The notes under the pieces were generated by a model. It was not told where the DNA came from, did no database searches, and saw only the letters and a list, made by a program, of their open reading frames with translations. The translations under genes were made by a program, and so were the position numbers. A stretch of 64,000 nt of DNA from Desulfovibrionaceae bacterium (GTDB taxonomy: Bacteria > Desulfobacterota > Desulfovibrionia > Desulfovibrionales > Desulfovibrionaceae): NCBI GenBank assembly GCA_015709315.1, contig JACCQI010000014.1:1-64000 (forward strand). The letters run 5' to 3'. Each line of letters starts with the position of its first letter. The first letter of the stretch is position 1. Positions 44,887 through 49,891 of this stretch are shown here, in pieces.

Positions 44887-46182
44887 ATGGGCGAAGCAGC
44901 GGAACTGCTGATCGAACCGAAGCAATCGGAACTGGTGGACAAGGTCAAGGAGATGCTGCCGGAGGGCAACCTGAACATGTGTCTCACCTGCGGCGCGTGT
45001 TCCTCGGGCTGTCCGGCCACGGGCATGCATGGCATGGACCCGCGCAAATTCCTGCGCCTGGCCCTTCTGGGGCAGGAGGAGGAAATCCGGTCCACGCCGT
45101 GGGTCTGGCTCTGCACCATGTGCAGGCGGTGCGTTCACGCCTGCCCCATGGGGGTGGAAATTCCCCAGTTGGTCTACCACTGCCGCCAGTCCTGGCCCAG
45201 AGAGGAGCGTCCCAAGGGCATCCTGGGTTCCTGCGAGCAGGCCCTGAACACGGCGGGCAACAGCGCCATGGGCGCGTCCAGCGAGGACTTCAAGTTCGTG
45301 GTCGAGGACGTGGCCGAGGAAGTGCGCGAGATGCAGCCGGGCTTCGAGAACCTGGAAGTGCCCATCGACAAGAAGGGCGCGTACTATTTCCTGAACCAGA
45401 ATTCCCGCGAGCCCGTCACCGAGCCGGACGAGATGATTCCGCTGTGGAAAATCCTCAACCTGGTCGGGGCGGACTGGACCTATTCCACCAAGGGGTGGGC
45501 GGCCGAGAACTATTGCATGTTCCTGGCCGACGACGATTCCTGGGAAAAGGTGGTCCGCAACAAGGCGCAGGCCGTGGAGGACCTGGGGTGCAAGGTCTGG
45601 CTCAATACGGAGTGAGGACACGAGTTCTACGCAGTCCGGGCTGGACTGCAACGGTTCAACGTGGAGCACAGCTTCGAGATGGAGTCGATCATCCGCCTGT
45701 ACGCGAAGTGGATTCGCGAGGGCAAGCTGCCGGTCAATTCGGACTGGAACAAGGACCTGGGCGTGACCTTCACGGTCCAGGACCCCTGCCAACTGGTCCG
45801 CAAATCCCTGAGAGACCCGGTGGCCGAGGATCTGCGGTTCGTGGTCAAGTCGGTTGTCGGTGAGGAAAACTTCATCGACATGTGGCCCAACAAGTCGAAC
45901 AACTATTGCTGCGGCGGCGGCGGAGGGTTCCTCCAGTCCGGTTTCGCCGAGGAAAGGAGGGCGTACGGCAAGGTCAAGCTCGAGCAGATACTTCGTACCA
46001 AGGCGGATTACTGCATTGCGCCGTGCCACAACTGCCACTCCCAGATTCATGATTTGAGCGAGCATTACGAGGCCGGGTTCCCCGTGGTCCATCTGTGGAC
46101 GCTCATTTGCCTCTCCCTCGGCATCCTGGGGGAAAACGAGCGGGAATATCTCGGCGAGGATTTGAAGAACGTAGGGTTGTGA
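44887..46182 (+). CDS. HdrD-like selenoprotein (TGA at codon 243 read as selenocysteine)
   Basis: 431 residues if TGA 45613-45615 is decoded as selenocysteine. Reading continues in the same frame with full family similarity on both sides. Before it are CLTCGACSSGCP near residue 36, CTMCRRCVHACP near 78 and a first CCG-like domain ending CKVWLNTE-U-GHEFYAVRAG. After it is a complete second CCG domain (VQDPCQL, NYCCGGGGG, APCHNCHSQ). In the paralogue encoded just downstream the same position is Cys233 (PDCGGGSYGCRKG). A hairpin 16-34 bases after the TGA fits a bacterial SECIS. A nonsense mutation or sequencing error is the alternative, but frame, paralogue and hairpin all favour Sec. Confidence 0.85.
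45631..45649 (+). promoter_or_regulatory. SECIS-like hairpin of the HdrD selenoprotein
   Basis: GCAGTCC and GGACTGC form a perfect seven-base-pair stem with loop GGGCT. The loop starts 22 bases after the TGA with G in its first two positions, within the range known for bacterial SECIS elements and close to the GGUCU-type apical loop. Confidence 0.8.
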
Positions 46183-46316
46183 CCGTCCCGGGGCGGCGGT
46201 CATGTCCGGGTCGCACGGCGGCCCGGACCGGCCCTGCCCGTAGGGAACCTTTCCCGGGGCCGTCTTTGCGGCCTTCGGGGAACCGAACGGCGCGCAACGC
46301 GCCCAGGGAGAGCGTA

Positions 46317-47633
46317 ATGACGGTCACGCCCAAGCATTTGAACCCCGACGTAAGAAATTTCCTGGACAAATTCGACTTCAGCGCCTGCATGGCCTGCGGA
46401 ACCTGCTCCAACGGGTGCCCGGTTTCCGGCACGCCCGGCATGGAGGGATGGGACACGCGCACGGTCATGCGCATGCTCGCCTTCGGCATGGTGGACGAGG
46501 TGGTGGAGTCCGATTTCCCGTGGCTGTGTACCGGCTGCGGACGGTGCGCCTATTCCTGCCCCATGGGCATCGACATTCCGGCGGTCATGGCGCACATGAA
46601 ATCCCTGCGCGACCGCGACAAGGTGCCGGGCAGCCTGCACCGGGGCATGCAGAACAACGTGGACACCGGCAACAACCTGGCCATTCCCATGGACGAGTAC
46701 CTGGAGGGAATGGCCGACCTGGGGGCGGATTTGGCCGAGGAGTGCCCCGGATTCTACGTGCCCGTGGACAAGATGGACGCCAGGATCCTGTTTTTCCCCA
46801 ACTCCAAGGAGGTCTACGGCGATTTCGAGGACCAGTTCTGGTGGTGGAGGATATTCTACGCGGCCCGCGAGGACTGGACCGTGCCCAGCGAGGGCTGGGA
46901 GGCCGTGGACTGGGCGCTGTTCACCGGCAACTACGAGGCCAACAGGTTTCTGGCCAAGCGCAAGATGGATTTCATGCGCCGGCAGAACATCGAGCGCATG
47001 ATCATGCCGGATTGCGGCGGCGGGTCCTACGGCTGCCGCAAGGGCATGGAGACCTGCGTTATGGAGGATCCGGGCAACGAAGTCGGCTTCATCTACCTCT
47101 ACGATTATCTCATTCAGGTCATCCGGGAGGGGCGCATCCGGCTCGACAAGTCGGTCAATGCGGGCAAGCGGTTCACCTGGCACGACTCCTGTAAGCACGG
47201 CCGCGAACTGGCCCGCCATTTCGGCAAGGGGTACTACGAGGAGCCCCGCTGGATCATAGGGCAGTGCGTGGACGATTTCGTGGACATGACGCCCAACCGG
47301 GGACTCAATTACTGCTGCGGCGCGGGCGGCGGCATGTGGCCCGCGCCGTTCGAGGACGAGTCCGCGCATCATGCCCGGCACAAGTACGAGCAGATCAGGC
47401 GCACGGGCGCGGACGTGGTGGTCGTGGGCTGTTCCAACTGCCGCGACCAGATAATGAAGCGCATTCCCCGCTACTATACGGACTATCGCTACGAGGTGAA
47501 GTACATCTGGCAACTGGTGGCCGAGACATTGATCCTGGAGCCGTGGGAGGAGGAGATGGTCGCCCGGGCGGGCGAACTGGCCGACGCCCAGTGGAAGCGG
47601 TTCGGCGTGAACCCGGCCTCCACGGGGTATTGA
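46317..47633 (+). CDS. HdrD-like protein, Cys paralogue of the selenoprotein
   Basis: 438 residues with the same layout as the preceding gene: CMACGTCSNGCP near residue 25, CTGCGRCAYSCP near residue 66, a first CCG-like domain containing MPDCGGGSYGCRKGMETC at Cys233, and a complete second CCG domain (WHDSCKHG, NYCCGAGGGM, VGCSNCRDQ). ATG 46317 has GGGAG six bases upstream; the longer frame to 46095 overlaps the previous gene. Probably forms a complex with the selenoprotein, together giving two non-cubane cluster proteins. It ends the operon at a strong terminator. Confidence 0.9.
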   Translation: MTVTPKHLNPDVRNFLDKFDFSACMACGTCSNGCPVSGTPGMEGWDTRTVMRMLAFGMVDEVVESDFPWLCTGCGRCAYSCPMGIDIPAVMAHMKSLRDRDKVPGSLHRGMQNNVDTGNNLAIPMDEYLEGMADLGADLAEECPGFYVPVDKMDARILFFPNSKEVYGDFEDQFWWWRIFYAAREDWTVPSEGWEAVDWALFTGNYEANRFLAKRKMDFMRRQNIERMIMPDCGGGSYGCRKGMETCVMEDPGNEVGFIYLYDYLIQVIREGRIRLDKSVNAGKRFTWHDSCKHGRELARHFGKGYYEEPRWIIGQCVDDFVDMTPNRGLNYCCGAGGGMWPAPFEDESAHHARHKYEQIRRTGADVVVVGCSNCRDQIMKRIPRYYTDYRYEVKYIWQLVAETLILEPWEEEMVARAGELADAQWKRFGVNPASTGY

Positions 47634-47657
47634 GGCCGGGAATCGGGAAAAAAGTAG

Positions 47658-47694
47658 CCCCGCTCCTCCGTGGAGGAGCGGGGTTTCCTTTTTC
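47658..47694 (+). terminator. Terminator of the Hdr operon
   Basis: A perfect 12-base-pair stem (CCCCGCTCCTCC with its complement) closes on GT and is followed by TTTCCTTTTTC. Confidence 0.88.
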
Positions 47695-47713
47695 GGGCGT
47701 TATCTCCGGCGGG

Positions 47714-48031
47714 TCAGATGCTGGCGTCGAAGACCATGCCAATTCCGTTGCCTTCGAGGCTCTTGCTCGCAGCGTGGCCGCTCAGGACGTTTTTGACGAA
47801 GTCATAGCTTTGAGCCATGCCGGTCTTGTCGTTCGACGGGGAACTCGAGTTCATGTAGTCTAAGGTTTTTGAAGCCACCGCCGCGCCGAAGGACGCTTTG
47901 TCCGTCACGGCGTAGCCGGTGTTGCCTGCTGAATCATTCATGTAATCCAAGGTCTTGGAGACCACGGCGGCACCGAATGTATCCTGGTCGAAGGCCGTGG
48001 TGCCTCCAAGACTGCCGATTCCCATGGTCAT
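47714..48031 (-). CDS. Repeat protein of the putative-motility type, FliA-controlled
   Basis: 105 residues, no signal peptide. Two near-identical units, FGAAVVSKTLDYMN and FGAAVASKTLDYMN, begin at residues 19 and 48, and a third degenerate one (YDFVKNVLSGHAASKSLEGN) follows. I do not recognise a named family with certainty; small repeat proteins with KxLD helices resemble YjfB-type putative motility proteins. The upstream flagellar sigma-28 promoter supports a flagellar or chemotaxis role. ATG 48031 has GGAGGG eight bases upstream. Confidence 0.7.
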   Translation of the reverse strand: MTMGIGSLGGTTAFDQDTFGAAVVSKTLDYMNDSAGNTGYAVTDKASFGAAVASKTLDYMNSSSPSNDKTGMAQSYDFVKNVLSGHAASKSLEGNGIGMVFDASI

Positions 48032-48078
48032 AAGATATACCCTCCCTGGCCTTAGGCCGGAAATAACGCCTATCAGCC

Positions 48079-48105
48079 GTATCGGCCGGTTACGCCATGT
48101 CTTTA
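48079..48105 (-). promoter_or_regulatory. Sigma-28 (FliA) flagellar promoter
   Basis: On the minus strand TAAA-N15-GCCGATAC matches the FliA consensus TAAA-N15-GCCGATAA at all but the last base. The leader to the start codon is about 37 bases. Confidence 0.75.
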
Positions 48106-48161
48106 GAGGGAATGTTGAGAAAAGAGATGGTCCGGGTTATGGAAGAGGCGAGGGAGGCCGT

Positions 48162-48350
48162 ATGTTGTTCGAGATCGGGTATTTCCTGCTGGCGGTGGTC
48201 ATCAGCATCGGGGTGGGTGTCCTGCTGTACCTGTGGCAACGGCCGAAGCTGTCCATGCACTATCTCGTTCTGACCGTGGCCGGGGCCGTTTTTGCGATCT
48301 ACTACATCCTGCACGTGGTCTTCGGCAGCGGCCGGACGGGGTGGCCATGA
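48162..48350 (+). CDS. Small two-helix membrane protein
   Basis: 62 residues: helix 1 IGYFLLAVVISIGVGVLLYLW, a short basic loop QRPKLSMHY, helix 2 LVLTVAGAVFAIYYILHVVF and a hydrophilic end. GGGAGG lies four bases before ATG 48162. The stop overlaps the start of the next gene as ATGA, so they form a translationally coupled pair. I recognise no family. Both products are tiny helical hairpins, suggesting a heteromeric membrane complex. Confidence 0.65.
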   Translation: MLFEIGYFLLAVVISIGVGVLLYLWQRPKLSMHYLVLTVAGAVFAIYYILHVVFGSGRTGWP

Positions 48351-48511
48351 GTGAAACGGTCATGCTGATCATATCCGTGGCCGCCGGTGCCGGTGTGGCC
48401 GGGCTGCTGGCCTGGAAGCTGAAGAAAAGCTGCGTGCCGTGAATTCTGATTTATAGCGGAATCGGCGCGGGCATCGCCGTGTTCTATTTCTTGAAATACC
48501 TGTTCGGCTAG
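48347..48511 (+). CDS. Candidate novel small membrane selenoprotein with a CxxU motif
   Basis: 54 residues if TGA 48440-48442 encodes selenocysteine. Codons 1-31 give MSETVMLIISVAAGAGVAGL and a basic turn LLAWKLKKSCVP. The TGA follows, and the same frame continues for 22 codons as a second hydrophobic helix (ILIYSGIGAGIAVFYFLKY) to a TAG. The TGA therefore creates Cys29-x-x-Sec32, a thiol-redox motif, in the loop between two helices. A SECIS-like hairpin is centred 28 bases downstream. Without readthrough the protein would be a 31-residue peptide and the second helix would be unexplained. The alternative is a decayed gene. Confidence 0.55.
48463..48479 (+). promoter_or_regulatory. SECIS-like hairpin of the small membrane selenoprotein
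   Basis: CGGCG pairs with CGCCG around the seven-base loop CGGGCAT; a further GAA/TTC pairing extends it across a small internal loop. The loop begins 25 bases after the TGA with G at its second position, within the bacterial SECIS rules. Confidence 0.5.
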
Positions 48512-49314
48512 GATTCGTCGCCGTCGGCCTTCACCTCGTCCCAGAGCGCGTTCATGGCGTCCAGGTCCAGGTCGGGCAGGGCCAGGCCGCGTGATTCGGC
48601 CAGTTCTTCCATCTTTCCGAAACGGTTGAGGAACTTCTGGTTGGCAAAGTCCAGGGCCGAGTTGGCCTTGATGCCCTTGCGCCGTCCCAGCTCCACCAGG
48701 GTGAACAGGTAGTCGCCGAATTCCTGCTCCGAGGCGGCGGCGTCGCCTGAATCCAGCGCTTCCCGCCATTCCCGCCACTCGTCCGCAAGCTGCGCCTCCA
48801 GGGCCTCGTCCGAGTCCCAGGTGAACGTGTTGCGGGCGGCCTTGGAGTTGATCCGGTACGCCTTGAGCAGGGGAGGCAGTCCCTTGGGCAGGGAGTCGAA
48901 GACGCGCTTTCGGCCGACTTTCTTGTTTTCCTTGCGCTTGATGGCCTCCCAGGTGTCCAGGATGGCGTTCACGTCCTTGGTCTGGGAATCGCCGAACACG
49001 TGGGGATGGCGGCTGATCATCTTGGCCGTGCTGTAGCGGGCGGATTCGGCCAGGGTGTGCGTTCCCGCCCGTTGGTACAGGGTGGCGATGAACAGGACGA
49101 TGAACAAGACGTCGCCCAGTTCCTCCATGGCCTCGCGGTCGTTGTCCGAGCGGATGCCCTCCACCAACTCGAAGGCTTCCTCGATCAGGTAGTCGCACAT
49201 GGACACGGGAGTCTGTTCCTTGTCCCACGGGCAGCCGTCCGGGGCGAGCAGGGCGTCGATGACGCCGAGAAGTTCCTGCATGGCCGCTGCTGCGGCATCA
49301 TGGTTGTCGCTCAT
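48508..49314 (-). CDS. mazG: Nucleoside triphosphate pyrophosphohydrolase MazG
   Basis: 268 residues containing two MazG domains, hydrolysing (d)NTPs to NMP and pyrophosphate for nucleotide pool cleaning. The first domain has CPWDKEQT near residue 28, the metal-binding helices EEAFELVEGI and EELGDVLFIVLF near 45-75 and HPHVFGD near 103. The second has EEFGDYLFTLVELGR-type residues near 195. Length is typical. Its stop codon overlaps the stop of the convergent small membrane protein gene. Confidence 0.93.
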   Translation of the reverse strand: MSDNHDAAAAAMQELLGVIDALLAPDGCPWDKEQTPVSMCDYLIEEAFELVEGIRSDNDREAMEELGDVLFIVLFIATLYQRAGTHTLAESARYSTAKMISRHPHVFGDSQTKDVNAILDTWEAIKRKENKKVGRKRVFDSLPKGLPPLLKAYRINSKAARNTFTWDSDEALEAQLADEWREWREALDSGDAAASEQEFGDYLFTLVELGRRKGIKANSALDFANQKFLNRFGKMEELAESRGLALPDLDLDAMNALWDEVKADGDES

Positions 49315-49360
49315 GGCGAGGTCTCCTTGGAAAGATGGGAAAACGCCGGTTCGGCCCGGA

Positions 49361-49891
49361 TTATTCCTCGGTTTCGCCCTGGTCGATGCCCAAGGCGTCC
49401 TTGGCGTTGTTCAGGGCTTCCTGCGGGCTGGGAATGTCTATGTATTCCTCAAGCTTGTCAAGAACGTACCGGGCGCGCGGGGCGATGGCGGACTGGGTGA
49501 GGACATCCGCGTTCGGGGCGAAGGTGTGGAGAAACATGAGCCCGATCAGGGCGATGAGCACGCCTTCCAGCAGGCCGAACAGCGCGCCCGCCGTGCGGTC
49601 CACCCAGCCGAGAAGGGAGACGTCGAGCATGGTTCGGATGAGTTTGGCCACGGCCCAGAAGAGCGCCAGGGTGCCCACGAAAATGATGGTGTAGGACAGT
49701 ACGTCCACGGTCATTTCGCTGTCGATGTAGCGCGCCAGGTGCGGCTGGAGAAGGTGGTTGAAGTTGGAGGCCAGGACAATGGCCAGGATCACGGCGACCA
49801 GGGAGACCACTTCCTGGACCAGGCCGCGGAAGAAGCCGCGCAGGAGAAACAGGGCAACGATGCAGATGAGGATGATGTCGAGAAAATTCAT
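49361..49891 (-). CDS. cvpA: CvpA-family inner-membrane protein
   Basis: 176 residues. Four hydrophobic helices are visible in the first 130 residues (IILICIVALFLLRGFF, LVAVILAIVLAS, LSYTIIFVGTLALFWAV, LFGLLEGVLIALIGLMFLH), with the family segment GWVDRTAGALFGLLEG. CvpA proteins are needed for colicin V production in E. coli and for envelope stress tolerance elsewhere. The gene sits directly downstream of the rmlC-manC pair in divergent orientation and upstream of mazG. Confidence 0.85.
   Translation of the reverse strand: MNFLDIILICIVALFLLRGFFRGLVQEVVSLVAVILAIVLASNFNHLLQPHLARYIDSEMTVDVLSYTIIFVGTLALFWAVAKLIRTMLDVSLLGWVDRTAGALFGLLEGVLIALIGLMFLHTFAPNADVLTQSAIAPRARYVLDKLEEYIDIPSPQEALNNAKDALGIDQGETEE

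Follow-up and report, generated by a model that had tools for sequence, protein, structure and literature searches.

Selenoproteins with a CxxU motif, in which selenocysteine (Sec, U) follows a cysteine, include glycine reductase protein A and the SelW-like and AhpD-like proteins (PMC13188914, Table 1), and the motif is named in the same work as redox-related. These three are soluble domains. Among membrane proteins, the eukaryotic SelK and SelS carry a single Sec near the C terminus. The FeoB-associated Cys-rich membrane protein (PF12669) is small, with one helix, a basic stretch and cysteines, and is not known to contain Sec or a second helix. SelB and tRNA-Sec are signatures of Sec decoding (PMC1273633), and the model of the bacterial SECIS element places its apical loop 16 to 37 nt downstream, with a G at the loop (PMC13188914). 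According to the authors of deep-Sep, almost all selenoproteins have numerous Cys homologues, and their method discards any candidate that has neither a homologue known to contain Sec nor two or more Cys homologues among the top ten hits; its test set includes two Desulfobulbia genomes (PMC12013277).

The gene considered here lies in the window (the whole stretch of DNA that was analysed, 64,000 nucleotides). What would pass for a 31-residue gene fragment is very probably a complete membrane protein of 54 residues that bears Sec, a reading that rests on computation, since no selenium was measured. The frame is MSETVMLIISVAAGAGVAGLLAWKLKKSCVP-[TGA]-ILIYSGIGAGIAVFYFLKYLFG-TAG, with 31 sense codons, the TGA, 22 further codons and the TAG at 48509-48511. 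Its product, which begins with MSETV and ends with YLFG, is laid out as helix 1, a basic loop, C-V-P-[TGA]-I-L-I-Y and helix 2 (Table 1). The original prediction, made from sequence alone, had given these coordinates, this frame and these codon counts, all of which held exactly. It had also described a hairpin with a G-containing loop downstream of the TGA, which is present, with its stem starting at base 20 and its loop at base 25 after the TGA. The translational coupling that it proposed with a tiny two-helix protein is physically plausible, given that the stop of the 62-aa upstream ORF overlaps the selenoprotein start as ATGA. At the other end, the stop of mazG overlaps that of the selenoprotein gene, and mazG is likely to be a neighbor without a functional link to it.

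Table 1. Features of the selenoprotein locus, in window coordinates.
Feature	Position	Strand	Description	Basis
Selenoprotein gene	48347..48511	+	54 aa, stop TAG	Reading frame and homologues
In-frame TGA, putative Sec codon (residue 32)	48440..48442	+		TGA within homologue matches
C-V-P-U motif codons (family consensus C-x-P-U)	48431..48442	+		Frame and family conservation
Putative bacterial SECIS hairpin	48463..48479	+	5-bp stem, 48463-48467 with 48475-48479	
SECIS hairpin loop	48468-48474	+	CGGGCAT	
Predicted transmembrane helix 1	48359..48418	+	About residues 5-24	AlphaFold helix 3-24 (low confidence), hydropathy
Predicted transmembrane helix 2	48443..48505	+	About residues 33-53	AlphaFold helix 30-53 (low confidence), hydropathy
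Upstream two-helix protein	48162..48350	+	62 aa, C-terminus GSGRTGWP	ORF
Convergent mazG	48508..49314	-		PF03819, E 7e-26

The family is far larger than the original prediction supposed. A first scan of genome contigs with the single protein as query gave no match. Searching 149 genomes of the window's taxonomic family with one sequence as query gave matches in 106 at a loose E of ≤10, mostly noise. The C..U...Y motif around an in-frame TGA was kept in 23 loci, and only these 23 members, chosen with Cys and Tyr in view, were used; one locus with a TGA and no motif (L028) was set aside, as was every match that yielded no locus. Profile A1 was built from them with Cys in the Sec column so as to favor Cys forms. 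Across 395 phylum-wide genomes it matched 45 at E ≤ 0.05, including 16 strong matches (E < 2e-8) with one TGA each, 14 of them outside the window's taxonomic family. The other 29 genomes matched weakly (E ≥ 0.003), and no homologue was found among the 14 of these that were inspected. With a 32-row profile, 49 of 288 genomes of the window's taxonomic family matched at E < 1e-5. The match contains a single TGA in 48 of them and two in G635; five more genomes at E 1e-3 to 6e-3 were left out. An 89-row profile matched 203 of 242 genomes of a second order (that of G234, which we take to be probably Desulfobulbales) at E ≤ 1e-3, including 136 of the 148 of good quality. Every row examined for this order, a part of the total, has one TGA, and seven loci were inspected. 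In the 33 further loci obtained from the family and second-order searches the motif was kept throughout; the script required Cys and Tyr, yet all 33 supplied loci matched.

Since the TGA is common to many separately sequenced genomes, it is not a base error, and the doubt raised with the original prediction, that a resequenced base might remove it, is not borne out. Two other outcomes that would have refuted it, homologues that end at the TGA or lack the second helix, were also assessed. None of the homologues inspected stops there, as they continue for 19 to 25 residues, and the segment after Sec is hydrophobic above threshold in 76 of 104 members (the segment before Cys, at the same threshold, in 104 of 104).

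The species collection was also scanned with a DNA pattern (C-x-P-TGA-x3-Tyr plus a few small or hydrophobic residues), which found at least 118 stretches. Loci were obtained for 80, and 76 of these resemble family members, seven repeating contigs already in the set. Three loci (L080, L125 and L126) were chance matches and were dropped, as were one cut by a contig end (L137) and the seven duplicates; one without a full N terminus (L092) was kept apart. The commonest label among pattern-found members is Desulfobulbus or Desulfobulbaceae, others being Desulfocapsa, Desulfofustis, Desulforhopalus, Desulfonatronovibrio and Pseudodesulfovibrio, together with unspecific labels of metagenome-assembled genomes such as Deltaproteobacteria and Proteobacteria. 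Carriers with a species name that also have SelA include Desulfoprunum benzoelyticum, Desulfogranum mediterraneum, Desulfopila aestuarii and Desulforhopalus singaporensis. Plasmids and phages, searched with one member as query, gave no match.

Some records stand apart. The locus kept aside comes from a Clostridiales record (L092:5769-5885) and encodes MKEILKSFLTHCPPUIMIYLLLGAGFGIYFLVKNFLLR, which has the motif, as C-P-P-U-I-M-I-Y, and a second helix, without helix 1. Its start overlaps the stop of the preceding ORF as ATGA, a hairpin with a GGG loop follows the TGA, and its genome has a SelA fragment at a contig end; it could be a distant short form in Firmicutes. Moreover, two genomes gave more than one strong row (three in G853, locus L230, and two in G716), for which gene duplication or redundant assembly is conceivable.

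It is important to consider that the DNA pattern itself fixes Cys, Pro, Tyr, the TGA and small residues, so that earlier counts including pattern-found loci were biased. For this reason, the figures for conservation, codon position and dN/dS rest on 60 distinct profile-derived members. In these, Cys is found at -3 in 60 and Pro at -1 in 57; after Sec, Tyr is found at +4 in 60 and Gly at +8 in 54 (Ala in 6), and further along helix 2 position +10 is Gly in 59 members and position +14 is Tyr or Phe in all 60. Members are 50 to 58 residues long. Over the 19 codons after the TGA, differences in 86 close pairs are distributed as 0.32/0.19/0.49 on codon positions 1/2/3, whereas beyond the final stop the three positions share them about equally (0.33/0.32/0.35). 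The median dN/dS after the TGA is 0.39 (77 pairs) and lies below 1 in 94% of pairs; adding pattern-found members gives 0.31 (277 pairs), a value lowered by the pattern. Thus, in the profile-derived members, the codons past the TGA evolve as coding sequence, and the in-frame UGA is flanked on either side by conserved codons, as is required of a bacterial selenoprotein. TGA is the terminal stop in 22 of the 60 genes, and it therefore also terminates translation in these organisms.

The fit of the hairpin to bacterial SECIS rules, claimed in the original prediction, is true but weak on its own. At -7.5 kcal/mol, generic rules are passed by 34 of 37 members, by 82% of synonymous recodings and by 66% of sampled random TGAs; for the last reason we rejected them as proof. 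Folding energies taken by themselves lie only slightly below expectation (mean z -0.77, negative in 28 of 37). The comparative evidence raises the hairpin above chance. Members were split by eye and post hoc into two groups by hairpin register, a caveat that weighs above all on the small one. Group one (21 profile-derived members) combines an 8-bp stem with a 4-nt loop, in most cases [N]GG[T/C], at 20 nt downstream of the TGA, and group two (16, the window included) a 5-bp stem with a 7-nt loop at 25 nt. Pairing in the best register reached 0.798 in group one, against a maximum of 0.708 in 300 synonymous recodings, and 0.850 in the window's group, against 0.775 in 300, where the recodings followed each gene's own codon usage and each was allowed its best register. 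Double changes that keep pairing occupied 17 cells in group one versus 3.1 +/- 2.3 expected from shuffles (0 of 500 reached this) and, more modestly, 3 versus 0.5 in the window's group (1 of 500). When pattern-found members were included, pairing was 0.868 for the 87 members of group one, where 200 recodings gave at most 0.723, and 0.867 for the 18 of group two, where they gave at most 0.811; double-change cells then numbered 64 versus 19.4 +/- 3.2.

For the Gly beneath the loop, 59 of 87 members of group one use GGT (at +8; background 25%), as do 11 of 18 of group two (at +10; background 16%). The loop Gly codon thus differs by group, and the hairpin lies over one of two neighboring Gly codons of the same helix, an apparent natural shift of a SECIS element within coding sequence. 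The first G is at position 2 of the 7-nt loop as drawn for the window, and at position 3 in many others of its group (CAGG...) unless an inner pair forms. RNAalifold gave no structure for the window's group, and Rfam no match in 47600-49400. On the evidence of synonymous recoding and covariation, with groups set by eye, a SECIS-type hairpin has been selected beyond the needs of the protein, and the family satisfies the SECIS criterion for a bacterial selenoprotein.

The absence of Sec machinery would also have refuted the original prediction, and it was not seen. The window's genome has SelA (E 6e-161), SelB (E 9.5e-115, above the curated cut-off) and a tRNA-Sec above the gathering score with anticodon TCA. 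In the second order, the gene and SelA occur together in 180 genomes, the gene alone in 23, SelA alone in 23 and neither in 16 (p 3e-5); in the window's taxonomic family, SelA occurs in 47 of 49 carriers versus 182 of 239 non-carriers (p 8e-4). These p values carry no correction for kinship, and the 47 were counted by eye. The two carriers without a SelA match in the taxonomic family are genomes 73% and 67% complete. From the 23 of 203 such carriers in the second order, six were retested, and SelB and tRNA-Sec were found in five, G798 having neither. Three gene-less genomes of one genus showed no SelA, SelB or tRNA-Sec either, at the limits that were applied. Because 23 non-carriers in the second order and 182 of 239 in the taxonomic family possess SelA, the selenoprotein is not indispensable. 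Two near-complete genomes (G693 and G700, loci L225 and L226) have SelB, tRNA-Sec and the selenoprotein gene with no SelA match at E ≤ 1e-20; their SelA may have been missed, broken or replaced.

No Cys homologue was found among 288, 395 and 242 genomes with profiles carrying Cys in the Sec column, and a motif scan of the fetched loci, which looked at the Sec position for Cys, Ser, Thr, Gly, Arg or Trp, was empty. The samples overlap, the rows of the 242 genomes were covered only in part, and only first-look candidates were scored. Twenty weak matches without the motif, inspected as possible Cys homologues, were rejected: the 14 weak phylum-wide matches, out of 29, and six non-TGA family loci were unrelated protein pieces or short chance stretches. 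The remaining 15 weakly matching phylum-wide genomes yielded no locus and stand outside this reading. Consequently, the family does not meet the usual, though not defining, discovery criterion of Cys at the Sec position in homologues. Sec-only families are easily missed, because a filter of the deep-Sep type needs known Sec or Cys homologues. The family thus exposes a blind spot of such methods, and its Sec-only occurrence makes the question of why selenium is used over sulfur testable in a protein of 54 residues.

With respect to topology, the mean number of K+R is 2.49 in the loop, 0.56 in the N-terminal part and 0.33 in the C-terminal part. Under the positive-inside rule, positively charged residues tend to lie on the cytoplasmic side, and their concentration in the loop thus suggests that the Cys-Sec loop is cytoplasmic. 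The AlphaFold model is of low confidence (pLDDT 67.9, pTM 0.35). On an ideal helix 2, U32, Y36 and G40 share one face. The fold search of the PDB gave no match at E ≤ 0.001 and a single, meaningless one at E 9. Membership of the thioredoxin fold is not met, the predicted structure being a low-confidence two-helix hairpin without a PDB fold match.

In the gene neighborhood, no fixed partner gene was seen beside the selenoprotein, and the neighbors point to no common redox pathway. The gene most often found directly upstream is TypA/BipA, which the motif recognized in 48 of 105 loci; it missed one further case (L106). TypA was rejected as a functional partner and taken as the gene order of one lineage, and no link between TypA/BipA and a selenoprotein was found in the open-access literature searched. 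An initiation factor 2B-like gene, read as MtnA, follows the selenoprotein gene on the same strand in 18 of 114 loci, a count that includes duplicates. In one locus (L009), a rubredoxin-like ORF, recognized by motif without a profile run, ends directly before the gene, and relatives of the same genus share the upstream C terminus. The upstream two-helix protein with the conserved C-terminus SGRTGWP was seen in 11 genomes including the window's, all of the window's genus. Among the loci scanned, it is not part of the family core and occurs in part of one genus; the loci were fetched around the selenoprotein gene, so that co-occurrence is established only there and exclusivity is not shown.

Two other features of the surroundings were recorded. 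On the minus strand at 47714-48031, a 105-aa ORF with repeated KTLDYMN units has no Pfam match, and its cluster is near the gene in 4 of 114 loci. Further upstream, at 44887-47633, ORFs carry cysteine-rich and CCG motifs that by eye resemble heterodisulfide reductase-type subunits.

Taken as a selenoprotein, the reading of the original prediction is strongly supported, and its thiol-redox function remains an inference. It is very likely that UGA32 is decoded as Sec, with the reservation that the support is computational and neither selenium nor a full-length product was measured. A selenol/thiol redox role at the membrane is inferred and only slightly favored, and the same cautious preference applies to Sec decoding and this role taken jointly. 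In the proposed mechanism, whose first step has strong computational support, UGA32 is decoded by the SelA, SelB and tRNA-Sec of the genome, directed by the SECIS-type hairpin in the codons of helix 2. By inference, the product would insert as a hairpin of two helices, with its basic loop cytoplasmic and its two termini on the outer side. Cys29 would then belong to the loop, and Sec32, within the first turn of helix 2, would lie where that helix meets the cytoplasmic face of the membrane. A Cys29-Sec32 selenenyl-sulfide bond would probably form and break, with Tyr36 one turn below Sec. Such a membrane-anchored redox site might relay electrons, with a soluble thiol or a rubredoxin-type protein as the donor and, on the other side, a partner in the membrane or a hydroperoxide substrate.

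Two alternatives accept the selenoprotein and dispute its role, and both appear unlikely. Cys29 and Sec32 could hold soft metals or metalloids (Cu, Cd, Hg or As) or hand them on, the protein acting as a minimal metallochaperone or transporter accessory at the membrane surface instead of in thiol redox. C-x-P-U does resemble metal-binding sites of the Cys-Pro-Cys type. Furthermore, selenium-containing transporters have been listed, including a mercuric transport protein with C/SxxU, and about 70% of predicted Sec-ligand interactions involve metals (PMC13188914). Against this, the mercuric transport family was not matched in the Pfam scans, the occurrence in 136 of 148 good second-order genomes, with no plasmid or phage match of the one member searched, suggests housekeeping rather than resistance, and the recurrent neighbors identified are typA and the initiation factor 2B-like gene, not metal genes. 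The protein could otherwise belong to a larger membrane complex as a small subunit with a structural or regulatory role, its Sec tuning the stability or assembly of the complex rather than catalysis. About 54 residues with two helices resemble many accessory subunits, and the conserved Gly +8, Gly +10 and Tyr/Phe +14 suit helix packing against a partner. However, no fixed partner gene is adjacent, and an invariant Cys and Sec without a Cys form point to chemistry at Sec.

The remaining alternatives deny Sec altogether and are close to being ruled out. If the TGA were a true stop, the product would be a 31-residue, one-helix peptide and the downstream frame decay or coincidence; standard gene finding yields this peptide, which has one good helix. 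It is contradicted by the codon-position signal and dN/dS after the TGA, the loss of the signal past the final stop, the Tyr at +4 in every profile-derived member and the TGA in every strong match. The TGA could also be read as another residue, e.g., Trp, through reassignment or leaky termination, and the frame is open under any such reading. Nevertheless, TGA serves as a terminal stop in 22 of 60 members, the Sec machinery co-occurs with the gene, the SECIS-type hairpin is under selection that exceeds protein needs, and none of C, S, T, G, R or W stands at that position in the fetched loci. The membrane redox selenoprotein remains our preferred reading. A bolder version of it, to which we give rather less than even credence, is a Sec-only membrane family near-universal in one order of Sec-decoding sulfur-cycle bacteria, with Cys-Pro-Sec-x3-Tyr as a minimal, undescribed selenol-tyrosine redox center in which Cys is no substitute.

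As far as our searches reach, this is very probably a real, large and uncatalogued selenoprotein family. Neither Pfam nor NCBIfam release 20.0 nor the 2026 catalogue overturns the claim that no described family has this form. The window protein gave no match at E ≤ 0.1 to Pfam or NCBIfam, NCBI selenoprotein models included. Among 89 members searched against Pfam and NCBIfam release 20.0, no family matched more than 10 at E ≤ 0.1, the best single matches being to DUF3918 (E 0.0013, two members) and CoxD_Bacillus (E 0.00066, two members). Nothing like it by name, motif or domain is among the 119 families and subfamilies catalogued in 2026 (PMC13188914), and no report of it was found in the open-access literature searched, subscription papers and preprints being largely outside that search. 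The family is easily overlooked because software reads its internal codon as a stop, and gene finders would truncate this large group to 31 residues or skip it.

Among described proteins, PF12669 shares the small size and a helix that leads into a basic stretch and cysteines, and a match to it was obtained for 3 of 89 members (best E 0.056). SelK and SelS are not known to be related in sequence or topology, the window family having its Sec between two helices. With the listed CxxU selenoproteins, the family shares a UGA-coded Sec with a downstream in-frame SECIS element, a Cys three residues before Sec and, probably, selenenyl-sulfide chemistry; it differs from them in being a membrane hairpin of 54 residues for which no Cys form was found. 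Like the putative mercuric transport selenoprotein (PF02411, C/SxxU), it is a membrane protein with Sec in a CxxU context. In contrast to that protein, it has no PF02411 match in the Pfam scans and no mercury gene among the recurrent neighbors identified, and it is near-ubiquitous in one order.
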